From positions 1-5,351 of the forward strand of contig CAMGCA010000154.1 in the NCBI GenBank assembly GCA_946011705.1: a stretch of DNA of 5,351 bases, given 5' to 3'. This DNA is from an uncultured Clostridia bacterium (GTDB lineage Bacteria > Bacillota > Clostridia > Oscillospirales > Oscillospiraceae). The position numbers and the translations under genes were made by a program. Positions 700-5,050 of this stretch are shown here, in pieces. The stretch's first letter is position 1; the number at the start of each line of letters is the position of its first letter. Below the pieces are notes generated by a model, which was given only the letters and a program-made list of their open reading frames with translations, searched no databases and was not told the origin of the DNA.

Positions 700-2478
700 A
701 TGTATTATTCCCGCGGTAATTACGAAGCCTTTGCCCGTCCCAGAAAGCCCGAGGGCGTGGACAACAAATCCGCCCACATCATCGGCACCGGCCTTGCGGC
801 TCTGACTGCCGCCTGCTATCTGGTTCGTGACGGACAGCTGCAGGGTCAGAACATCCACATCTATGAGAAAGACCCCATTCCCGGCGGTGCATGCGATGGC
901 TGGCAGTACCCCGATGTAGGCTATGTCATGCGGGGCGGACGGGAGATGGATAACCATTTCGAGGTCATGTGGGATTTGTTCCGCTCCATTCCGTCCATCG
1001 AGACGGAAGGGGTCAGTGTTCTGGACGAATACTACTGGCTGAATAAGAAAGACCCCAACTACTCCCTCTGCCGGGCAACCGTCAACCAGGGTCAGGATGC
1101 CCACACCGACGGCAAGTTCGGTCTGTCCGACAAGGCTGCAATGGAGATCATGAAGCTGTTCTTCACCCCCGATGAAGACCTGTACGATAAGCGCATCACG
1201 GATTTCTTCGATGATGAGGTGCTGAACTCCAATTTCTGGCTCTACTGGCGCACCATGTTTGCCTTTGAGAACTGGCACAGCGCTTTGGAAATGAAGCTGT
1301 ATCTCAAGCGCTATATCCACCATGTGGGCGGTCTGCCGGACTTCAAGGCTCTGCGGTTCACCCGTTATAACCAGTACGAATCTATGATTCTGCCCATGGT
1401 CAAGTATCTGGAAGGCTTCGGTGTCCAGTTCCACTATAACACCAAGGTGGTCAATGTGGAGTTCGACATCCAGCCCGGTAAAAAGCAGGCAAAGCGTATT
1501 GAGCTGCTGTCTGAGGGCAAACATCAGTTTGTTGACCTGACGGAAAACGATCTGGTGTTCATTACCAACGGCGGCTGCGTGGAGAACGCCACCATGGGTT
1601 CCCAGAACACCGTGGCACCCTTCAACCCCGAAATCAAGCCCGGCGGCGGCTGGGATATGTGGCGCAGAATTGCTGCACAGGATCCTTCCTTCGGTCATCC
1701 CGACAAGTTCTGCCATGATCCTGAGCAGTCCAACTGGATGAGCGCCACCGTCACCACACTGGATCAGAAGATCATTCCCTATATCAAGAATATCTGCAAG
1801 CGTGACCCCTTTACCGGCGGCGTGGTTACCGGCGGCATCGTGACCGTGAAGGATTCCGGCTGGCTCCTGAGCTGGACCATCAACCGTCAGCCCCAGTTCC
1901 GGAATCAGCCCAAGGATCAGTGCCTGGTGTGGGTTTACGGTCTGTTCTCCGACAAACCCGGCGACTTCGTGAAGAAGCCCATGCGGGAGTGCACCGGTAA
2001 GGAAATCTGTATGGAGTGGCTGTACCACATCGGCGTGCCGGTGGGGGAGATCGAGGAGCTGGCCGAGCACAGCGCCAACACTGTGCCGGTGATGATGCCC
2101 TATATTACCGCTTTCTTCATGCCCCGTGCCGCCGGTGACCGTCCTGATGTGGTGCCCGAGGGTGCTGTGAACTTTGCGTTCCTGGGTCAGTTTGCCGAAA
2201 CCAAGCGGGATACCATCTTCACCACCGAGTATTCCATGCGTACCGGCATGGAGGCTGTCTACACCCTGCTGGACATCGACCGTGGTGTGCCCGAGGTCTG
2301 GGGCAGCGTCTACGACATCCGTGATCTGCTGAACGCCACCATCCAGCTTCGGGACGGCAAGCCCCTGACGGACATGGAACTGGGCTTCAAGGAGAAAATG
2401 GCGGTCAAGAAGCTGCTGGAGAAGATCCGCGGAACAGATATCGAAAAGCTGCTGAAAGAATATCATGTAATTGAGTGA
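700..2478 (+). CDS. ohyA: Oleate hydratase (FAD-dependent fatty acid double-bond hydratase, MCRA family)
   Basis: Oleate hydratase adds water to the cis-9 double bond of free oleate and related unsaturated fatty acids, giving 10-hydroxystearate (EC 4.2.1.53), at the inner face of the membrane. It can detoxify host or dietary fatty acids. The 592 residues match the usual length of the Gram-positive type. Visible features are the FAD-binding loop G29-T-G-L-A-A34 in a Rossmann fold, PGGACDG at 61-67, and RGGREMDNHF at 78-87. E82 and Y201 fall at the same numbers as the catalytic Glu82 and Tyr201 I recall for the Staphylococcus aureus enzyme. The C-terminus (about 555-592) is lysine-rich and helical, as expected for membrane attachment. 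AAGGAGG at 685-691 sets the start. The gene ends in tandem in-frame stops TGA TAG. Strongly biased GC-rich codons suggest high expression. Start and identity are both firm. Confidence 0.96.
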   Translation: MYYSRGNYEAFARPRKPEGVDNKSAHIIGTGLAALTAACYLVRDGQLQGQNIHIYEKDPIPGGACDGWQYPDVGYVMRGGREMDNHFEVMWDLFRSIPSIETEGVSVLDEYYWLNKKDPNYSLCRATVNQGQDAHTDGKFGLSDKAAMEIMKLFFTPDEDLYDKRITDFFDDEVLNSNFWLYWRTMFAFENWHSALEMKLYLKRYIHHVGGLPDFKALRFTRYNQYESMILPMVKYLEGFGVQFHYNTKVVNVEFDIQPGKKQAKRIELLSEGKHQFVDLTENDLVFITNGGCVENATMGSQNTVAPFNPEIKPGGGWDMWRRIAAQDPSFGHPDKFCHDPEQSNWMSATVTTLDQKIIPYIKNICKRDPFTGGVVTGGIVTVKDSGWLLSWTINRQPQFRNQPKDQCLVWVYGLFSDKPGDFVKKPMRECTGKEICMEWLYHIGVPVGEIEELAEHSANTVPVMMPYITAFFMPRAAGDRPDVVPEGAVNFAFLGQFAETKRDTIFTTEYSMRTGMEAVYTLLDIDRGVPEVWGSVYDIRDLLNATIQLRDGKPLTDMELGFKEKMAVKKLLEKIRGTDIEKLLKEYHVIE

Positions 2479-2491
2479 TAGAAGCTTCACT

Positions 2492-3905: not shown

Positions 3906-5050
3906 CAACCTTCTTTACCTCTGAAAGCGTCACAGCGGGACACCCGGATAAGGTATGTGACCAGATCGCCGATGCCATTTTGGATGCCCTTTTGGAAAAC
4001 GATCCCCATTCCCATGTAGCCTGCGAAGTAACTGCCATTCCCAACGGGATCCACATTTTCGGCGAGATCACCTCGGCTGCCCGTGTGGACTATGCCGCTA
4101 TTGCCCGGCAGGTGGTTCGGGATATCGGGTATGTGAAGCACGGCTATGGCTTTGACGCAGACACCTGCCAAATCACAGTGGATATCCATGAGCAATCCCC
4201 CGATATCAACATGGGTGTGGAGAAGACGGATTCTATGGAAAACGGCGCAGGAGATCAGGGCATGATGTTTGGTTACGCATGCAAGGAAACGGAAAACCTG
4301 ATGCCGCTGCCCATTGAGCTTGCCCATGCGCTGACAAAGCGCCTTGCCTTTGTGCGGCAGGAGGGAATTCTGCCCTATCTGCTGCCAGATGGGAAAGCCC
4401 AGGTCACCGTGGAGTACCGGGACGGAATCCCGGCACGGGTGGAAACTGTTGTAGTTTCTTCCCAGCATGAGGCGGATGTGTCCATGGAGCAATTGCGGGA
4501 GGATATTCTCCGCCATGTCATCCACCCGGTGATCCCGGAGGGCATGCTGGACAGGAACACAAAATTCTTTATCAATCCTACAGGCCGTTTCTGCATTGGC
4601 GGTCCCGCCGGTGACAGCGGCCTGACGGGCAGGAAGCTGATCGTGGACACCTACGGCGGCTACGCCCGGCATGGCGGCGGCGCGTTCTCTGGTAAAGATC
4701 CCTCAAAGGTTGATAGAAGCGGCGCGTATATGGCCCGGTACTTGGCAAAAAACGTGGTTGCGGCGGGATTGGCGGATCGGTGTGAGATCCAGATCAGTTA
4801 CGCCATCGGCGTTGCCCAGCCGGTATCTCTCCTGGTAGACACCTTCGGTACGGGAAAGCTCCCGGCAGACCGGATCCGGGAACTGATTCTTAAAACGGTT
4901 GACCTGCGCCCCTCTGCTATCATAGACCGCCTTTCCCTGCGAACACCGTTTTACAGACACACTGCAAGCTATGGTCACTTTGGCTCAAATACTGCGGAAT
5001 TACCTTGGGAACAGACAAACTTGCCGCAGCTTTGGCAGGATATAATCTGA
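3902..5050 (+). CDS. metK: S-adenosylmethionine synthetase (methionine adenosyltransferase)
   Basis: MetK makes S-adenosylmethionine from methionine and ATP (EC 2.5.1.6) in the cytoplasm as a dimer or tetramer. The 382-residue protein has all signature motifs: GHPDK at 13-17 (H14, D16), E42 and E55, HEQSPDI, GAGDQGMMFGYA, DGKAQVTVEY, FINPTGRF-IGGPAGDSGLTGRK, and GGGAFSGKDPSKVDRS. It is slightly shorter than the common ~395, mainly because the loop before GAGDQG is short. Several normally near-invariant spots differ: TAGHPDK instead of TEGHPDK, IPNG where TTG is usual, SGAYMARYLA instead of SAAYAARYVA, and a diverged tail (LRTPFYRHTASYGHFGSNTAELPW). This suggests a specialised paralogue, or just a diverged lineage copy. 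The start overlaps the radical SAM stop (ATGA). No SAM riboswitch is visible anywhere upstream in the unit. Enzyme identity is firm; the paralogue idea is inference. Confidence 0.95.
   Translation: MTTFFTSESVTAGHPDKVCDQIADAILDALLENDPHSHVACEVTAIPNGIHIFGEITSAARVDYAAIARQVVRDIGYVKHGYGFDADTCQITVDIHEQSPDINMGVEKTDSMENGAGDQGMMFGYACKETENLMPLPIELAHALTKRLAFVRQEGILPYLLPDGKAQVTVEYRDGIPARVETVVVSSQHEADVSMEQLREDILRHVIHPVIPEGMLDRNTKFFINPTGRFCIGGPAGDSGLTGRKLIVDTYGGYARHGGGAFSGKDPSKVDRSGAYMARYLAKNVVAAGLADRCEIQISYAIGVAQPVSLLVDTFGTGKLPADRIRELILKTVDLRPSAIIDRLSLRTPFYRHTASYGHFGSNTAELPWEQTNLPQLWQDII
5041..5046 (+). promoter_or_regulatory. Possible -10 box for the gene at 5171
   Basis: A perfect TATAAT lies in the last codons of metK. 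No -35 match is found at normal spacing (TTGCCG at 5021-5026 is only 14 bases away). If used, transcription would start near 5053 and the hairpin at 5071-5113 would lie in the leader of the downstream gene. It may equally be chance, as it encodes the ordinary protein end D-I-I. Confidence 0.22.

Follow-up and report, generated by a model that had tools for sequence, protein, structure and literature searches.

The analysed window is a 5,351-nucleotide stretch from an uncultured Clostridia bacterium of the Oscillospiraceae (GenBank contig CAMGCA010000154.1, assembly GCA_946011705.1), in which genes for a TetR-type regulator, the oleate hydratase OhyA, a radical S-adenosylmethionine (SAM) enzyme (hereafter rSAM) and the SAM synthetase MetK all lie in one direction on the forward strand. 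Each of these enzyme types is known; new is that they are combined with a SAM synthetase from a separate clade, on DNA that appears to be spreading. As a tentative explanation, which in our judgement falls a little short of being probable, we propose that tetR, ohyA, rSAM and metK form a single response to unsaturated fatty acids, with rSAM predicted to remodel membrane acyl chains and MetK supplying SAM. The four genes are as follows:

16..576, forward strand: TetR-type regulator with TetR_N and TetR_C_8, 186 amino acids (PF14278, E 1.2e-12; PF00440, E 2e-6)
700..2478, forward strand: oleate hydratase OhyA, 592 amino acids (NF010584 and 7kav matches)
2535..3905, forward strand: radical SAM/SPASM enzyme, 456 amino acids (PF04055 and the SPASM domain PF13186, both above cut-off)
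3902..5050, forward strand: S-adenosylmethionine synthetase MetK of the rSAM-linked clade, 382 amino acids (TIGR01034)

Linkage of ohyA, rSAM and metK

A first-pass annotation of this DNA had described three same-strand genes, the first two separated by 56 bases and the last two overlapping in ATGA; tetR and the RelA/SpoT-type gene start at 5171 are additions to that description. For the three genes, profile matches agree: ohyA and rSAM are 56 bases apart, and the rSAM stop and metK start overlap in ATGA at 3902-3905, an overlap retained in loci L010, L012, L057 and L060. By scanning contigs for rSAM relatives, at least 597 were confirmed among at least 598 pattern matches, and the best 80 loci were used. 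Twelve of these encode an enzyme at least 95% identical to the window rSAM (near copies), and the remaining 68 are diverged. Near rSAM, ohyA was found in 23 of the 80 loci, in 20 of them no more than 1 kb away and in 21 on the strand of rSAM; for metK the corresponding numbers are 22, 21 and 21. The rSAM flanks contain a TetR homologue in 51 loci (28 within 1 kb). Because several contigs are short, these counts are lower bounds. Among the diverged loci, ohyA and metK were each linked in 11/68. ohyA stands immediately 5′ of rSAM, 24-64 bases away, in the window and in L001, L005, L007, L010, L011, L018 and L020, and other arrangements also occur: DUF308, MMPL and YhgE-like genes lie between ohyA and rSAM in L019 and L022 (the order in L019 being ohyA-DUF308-MMPL-YhgE-like-rSAM-metK), the two genes are divergent in L027 and L031, and L184, with an rSAM 60% identical to that of the window, has the order ohyA-tetR-rSAM with a degenerate rSAM paralogue in between. 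The gene-neighbourhood survey suggested in the first-pass annotation thus finds linkage of ohyA and metK to rSAM recurring across species and families.

An even sample of 196 genomes was also taken across the class of G001, which is the centre of the sample and itself a carrier. rSAM matches at E up to 1e-20 were present in 61 of the 196 genomes and the long type in 48, this type being called by reading the match table (for G014 from fragments), and PF06100 (ohyA) genes were detected in 21. The association of ohyA with rSAM exceeds chance, as 13 genomes carry both ohyA and the long rSAM, that is 13 of the 21 ohyA genomes versus 35 of the 175 others (odds ratio 6.5, Fisher p 1.2e-4, kinship not corrected). 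metK was found beside rSAM in 3/48 long-rSAM genomes (G001, G152 and G196), the flanks covered extending to at most 9 kb and less on shorter contigs. Judging from these even-sample counts, the triple unit is a property of one branch, whereas pairing and co-occurrence of the genes extend beyond it.

A SAM synthetase clade that stays with rSAM

The window MetK scores 562 bits against TIGR01034 (cut-off 309) and has the three Pfam domains (N, M and C), and it resembles housekeeping MetK in enzyme family and full length. It differs from housekeeping MetK in belonging to a separate clade that stays with rSAM and in being accompanied by a further copy: at least two metK matches were found in 18 of the 19 genomes carrying a linked metK, the nineteenth (G206, 1.6 Mb) having a single metK; in G002 the linked metK is a remnant. 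Within the survey, metK was detected in 183 of the 196 genomes, 17 of which have more than one match row, some of these being fragments.

Phylogenetic analyses separated the linked copies consistently. In a tree of 41 rows, 22 linked metK genes (including that of the window) split from one other copy each of 18 genomes with support 100/98, and the metK of L018, about 6 kb from rSAM, grouped with the linked side. When the remaining copies of G203, G210 and G211 and the second copies of G152 and G196 were added, 22 linked and 24 other metK genes were separated with support 100/99. A tree of 59 rows, including the 27 unlinked genes of the 30 best survey metK copies and leaving aside lower-scoring ones, grouped 14 linked rows with support 100/100 and left every survey row outside. 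Three of the 30 best survey matches in the 196 genomes belong to the linked clade, all of them beside rSAM. Since linked copies are 61-99% identical to the window metK, the pairing of metK with rSAM appears to be old. On the basis of these trees, the rSAM-linked metK is a dedicated SAM synthetase forming a separate clade, and the earlier suggestion that the unit brings along a SAM supply of its own is borne out at the gene level because metK is an extra copy in 18/19 genomes and its clade is tied to rSAM.

Third or fourth metK copies (47-51% identity), outside the linked clade and away from the usual copies, were seen in L259 and L260 (both G203), L261 (G210) and L262 (G211). Broken copies also occur, namely metK with stops in L003, metK with an internal deletion in L004 and a frameshifted rSAM in L076.

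Distribution between Lachnospiraceae and Oscillospiraceae

The block of L002 (Lachnospiraceae bacterium CE91-St56) is 97.1% identical over 6226 bases to that of L008 (Gemmiger formicilis, Oscillospiraceae), 97.3% over 6145 to L006, 98.5% over 6280 to L016, 96.7% to L009 and 91.2% to L005 (Anaerofilum), whereas other metK genes of the same genomes are 65-73% identical across the two families, where alignable. Between L002 and L004 (Catenibacillus, presumably Lachnospiraceae), divergence is about 0.6-0.9% within the block, against 25% for the other metK of each. Mobility genes were identified in several flanks, including an integrase and a relaxase in L001, an integrase and Mob_Pre in L009, a serine recombinase in L008, and ParA and ParB in L003. 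Because the block is near-identical while other metK genes have diverged, and because mobility genes lie in the flanks, transfer of the unit's DNA between Lachnospiraceae and Oscillospiraceae appears well supported. The near copies differ in blocks with sharp borders; a Hydrolase_4 gene, for example, lies between tetR and ohyA in L001, L002, L004, L005, L006, L008 and L076 and is absent from this position in the window, L003 and L009.

OhyA and the TetR regulators

As an oleate hydratase, OhyA would hydrate cis-9 double bonds of free fatty acids and so lower their harm. The window protein matches NF010584 (oleate hydratase) with 944 bits over residues 1-591 (cut-off 567), and its residues 1-590 match the oleate hydratase 7kav (E 1.2e-237), presumably the Staphylococcus OhyA. 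Glu82 and Tyr201, which we take to be the catalytic residues, are both present at these positions and aligned with 7kav. The two proteins are thus alike over 590 residues, and the difference from the Staphylococcus case is that the window ohyA is co-directional with rSAM and metK. Linked ohyA copies fall into one clade (99/99) that includes three survey rows, in a tree with 26 linked rows, two of which are second entries of the same gene.

TetR homologues were compared in 49 rows (10 located before ohyA alone, 24 near rSAM alone and 15 near both). One group (100/99) comprises 12 of the 15 joint-unit rows and two rSAM-only rows; its sister, at a support of 91/84 that lies under the cut-off for a starred branch, consists of five TetRs from ohyA genes standing alone. 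The other three joint-unit TetRs and most rSAM-only TetRs fall elsewhere in the tree. In the survey, 10 of 23 ohyA stretches have a TetR homologue without rSAM. Because related TetRs stand before ohyA alone and before joint units, the data fit the idea that ohyA and rSAM share one kind of signal, whose ligand, by extension, would likely be a fatty acid.

The rSAM enzyme and its lipid surroundings

rSAM is predicted to consist of a helical N domain (1-105), a domain with the cluster cysteines C121, C125 and C128 (CxxxxCxxC-type) and a long C-terminal helix. C121, C125, C128, C351 and C392 are present in 65/65 aligned sequences (the window included) and C332 in 64/65, and the SPASM domain PF13186 scores 26.6 bits (cut-off 21.5). 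Judged by these residues and domains, rSAM is a member of the radical SAM superfamily with a SPASM domain. Assignment to the archaeal tetraether synthases (Tes) was rejected: the profile match to 7tol reached E 0.0014 over 75 columns, in a comparison limited to solved Tes chains, whereas published criteria call for E below 1e-50 and more than 30% identity to a Tes (available text of PMC8941075).

Lipid-related genes in the neighbourhoods of rSAM relatives encode a Hydrolase_4 protein, MMPL, a CDP-alcohol phosphatidyltransferase and a patatin, with an acyl-ACP thioesterase in L203. Among the matches listed, long PlsA/Ger-like genes were found in 27 of 48 long-rSAM genomes versus 53 of 148 others (p 0.018), the length cut-off for these open reading frames (ORFs) being our own choice.

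A known enzyme of comparable proposed function is the bacterial membrane-spanning-lipid synthase (Mss), whose products are diabolic or iso-diabolic acids; Sahonero-Canavesi reportedly described the Mss of Thermotoga maritima in 2022. Both rSAM and Mss are enzymes of anaerobes, and Mss is proposed to link acyl chains of the membrane, SAM being its predicted cofactor (available parts of PMC13274423, PMC11604127 and PMC11868695). Mss homologues are reported in the same Clostridia families, at the authors' cut-offs in 277 Oscillospiraceae and 561 Lachnospiraceae species also having Ger, and Mss models are stated to have a Tes-like fold (available text of PMC13274423); the likeness to rSAM drawn here is one of description. 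The chain-joining activity is said to have been confirmed in membrane fractions and extracts of Butyrivibrio and Sarcina (available text of PMC8788747). In contrast to the window, no association of Mss with ohyA or metK is described in the available parts of PMC13274423, PMC11604127 and PMC11868695.

Several further members of the rSAM family were observed. In four loci, the interval between tetR and rSAM contains, in opposite orientation, a degenerate rSAM paralogue that lacks the cluster-cysteine motif; no Pfam match was found in the two copies scanned, and the protein is perhaps a partner subunit:

L181:7755-8726, reverse strand: degenerate rSAM paralogue
L182:7819-8886, reverse strand: degenerate rSAM paralogue
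L184:7688-8767, reverse strand: degenerate rSAM paralogue
L186:3544-4599, reverse strand: degenerate rSAM paralogue

Two ohyA-linked loci contain, at a distance of a few kb, another rSAM family member with 50-51% identity (L018:9131-10477 and L031:5083-6429). IncF-type plasmids of Escherichia albertii and Klebsiella pneumoniae carry relatives of 35-37% identity (L150:2254-3633 and L151:7974-9275), and for the E. albertii relative no near megablast match was found among 20,395 E. coli records. Relatives with 49-59% identity over 92-98% of the length also occur in five 'Bacteriophage sp.' records from human faeces, which may be mislabelled bacterial or mobile DNA:

MT836688: 'Bacteriophage sp.' record with an rSAM relative
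MT836060: 'Bacteriophage sp.' record with an rSAM relative
MT836382: 'Bacteriophage sp.' record with an rSAM relative
MT836374: 'Bacteriophage sp.' record with an rSAM relative
MT835501: 'Bacteriophage sp.' record with an rSAM relative

Hairpins, promoter and flanking genes of the window

The remaining features of the window are the following:

585..635, forward strand: 22-pair hairpin in the tetR-ohyA gap (RNA fold -42.2 kcal/mol, z -10.6)
661..666, forward strand: TATAAT, possible -10 box of ohyA, read in the sequence
2492..2514, forward strand: hairpin of 10 pairs between ohyA and rSAM, lacking a U run (part of a fold of -23.1, z -3.3)
5071..5113, forward strand: hairpin 3′ of metK, lacking a U run (part of a fold of -32.9, z -4.0)
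5171..5351, forward strand: small RelA/SpoT-type protein, first 60 amino acids, cut by the window end (full L002 copy: PF04607, E 3.5e-32)

The unit had been described as lying between two hairpins and behind a single good -10 box. Both hairpins fold well, as does that of the ohyA-rSAM gap, and TATAAT is present; nevertheless, a terminator scan of the window listed none of the hairpins at 585-635, 2492-2514 and 5071-5113, and a promoter scan listed no site at 661-666. The hairpin at 585-635 is likely the transcription end of tetR. That of the ohyA-rSAM gap recurs by eye, with altered letters, in L001, L005, L007, L010, L011 and L020, and is absent from L018, where the gap is only 24 bases; we infer that it is a processing or stability element and not a transcript end. 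The 60 amino acids of the RelA/SpoT-type protein are 98-100% identical across 10 near copies, with the gene located 3′ of metK, and this gene may link the unit to the stringent response. Upstream of tetR, near copies encode a protein of 74-85 amino acids, with HTH_26 in L001 (the only copy scanned); in an alignment with L003, its coding end falls within the first bases of the window, at about position 12:

L001:6107-6331: 74-85 amino acid protein
L003:7254-7478: 74-85 amino acid protein
L005:6106-6330: 74-85 amino acid protein
L006:2651-2875: 74-85 amino acid protein
L008:6076-6333: 74-85 amino acid protein
L009:7221-7478: 74-85 amino acid protein

A possible fatty-acid response and its alternatives

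Under the proposed explanation, the arrival of unsaturated fatty acids would cause TetR to release the promoter and OhyA would hydrate free fatty acids into less harmful products, two steps that follow from general knowledge of the families. rSAM may then cleave SAM and take a hydrogen from an unactivated acyl-chain carbon in a phospholipid or other acyl lipid, a step with less support, so as to join or alter acyl chains; the version to which we commit is that two chains are joined tail to tail, as by Mss, and that this would stiffen a membrane which oleate has loosened. Because the rSAM reaction consumes SAM, MetK, translated from the overlapping start, could supply it locally. That rSAM acts on an acyl chain had been suggested in the first-pass annotation, and we infer membrane acyl chains as the substrate: lipid-related neighbours and related TetRs are consistent with this, as is the failure to find a peptide precursor. 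Three observations weigh against the proposed explanation as a whole. The closest solved sequences and folds of rSAM are SuiB, SkfB, anSME, 5wgg and PqqE enzymes, which modify peptides or proteins; these SPASM enzymes match rSAM better than the archaeal tetraether synthase Tes/GDGT-MAS (7tol, 7tom) does, apparently in fold as well; and ohyA and rSAM lie within 10 kb of each other in only 2 of the 13 even-sample genomes with both (G001 and G093), being far apart on one contig in G034 and G094 (about 35 kb in G094) and on different draft contigs in 9/13.

The solved structures would suit a usual SPASM peptide or protein maturase for which the lipid genes are mere company, a reading that we regard as unlikely. 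Among 1136 small ORFs within 1.5 kb in 148 loci, no widely conserved candidate for a precursor-peptide gene was found; the largest groups of similar ORFs span 10, 5 and 5 near copies of the unit and 3 loci of Oscillibacter metagenome-assembled genomes, and in the window the gaps around rSAM are 56 and -4 bases. No Pfam match to an RRE or PqqD-like domain was detected in rSAM, and the predicted N domain is all helix. It is this helical N domain, together with the TetR and lipid surroundings and the failure to find a precursor gene, that sets rSAM apart from SuiB, SkfB and the sulfatase maturase anSME. If lipids are indeed the target, rSAM might instead modify the product of OhyA, a free or bound 10-hydroxy fatty acid, by dehydration, rearrangement, further oxidation or methylation and without chain joining. 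The position of ohyA 24-64 bases 5′ of rSAM in the window and seven loci and the single clade of linked ohyA copies with its three survey rows would agree with this; however, 57 of the 80 loci show no ohyA in the available flanks and 35 of the 48 long-rSAM genomes (drafts included) have no ohyA match, so rSAM must have a substrate without OhyA, and we consider this alternative distinctly improbable. It was also suggested earlier that ohyA merely neighbours an unrelated rSAM-metK pair. In its fuller form, ohyA and rSAM-metK would be separate stress genes that have accreted as cargo on a common piece of mobile DNA, governed by one TetR but belonging to no common pathway. Mobility genes beside several near copies, the sharp block borders and the rarity of adjacency in the even sample speak for such accretion, whereas the related TetRs do not, and chance neighbourhood is weakened by the linkage in 11/68 diverged loci with several rearranged gene orders (mobility genes were not looked for there) yet survives in part, given the even sample; we hold cargo accretion, too, to be unlikely.

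Returning to the proposed acyl-chain remodelling, the earlier statement that no described pathway joins these genes stands in part. Literature searches by name for oleate hydratase or myosin-cross-reactive antigen together with radical SAM returned only a bifidobacterial stress-gene survey, by its title unrelated, but the joining of acyl chains is already performed by Mss, and hundreds of Clostridia are reported to carry Mss-like genes (available text of PMC13274423). In its most specific form, which we think somewhat unlikely, the unit would be a mobile defence operon of gut Clostridia, in which a SPASM rSAM and a co-evolved MetK cross-link membrane acyl chains (or OhyA-made hydroxy chains) into a lipid undescribed there when host unsaturated fatty acids arrive. 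If true, radical lipid chemistry best known from thermophiles would be an inducible, transferable trait in animal guts. A SAM synthetase clade tied to one radical SAM family is unusual and offers a genetic handle on what limits such enzymes, and the unit provides a small named gene set for testing which enzyme makes the membrane-spanning lipids of gut and rumen Clostridia. Should rSAM be an enzyme that joins acyl chains, gut bacteria would respond to dietary oleate by inducing membrane-spanning lipids, and this ability would be one that passes between families.

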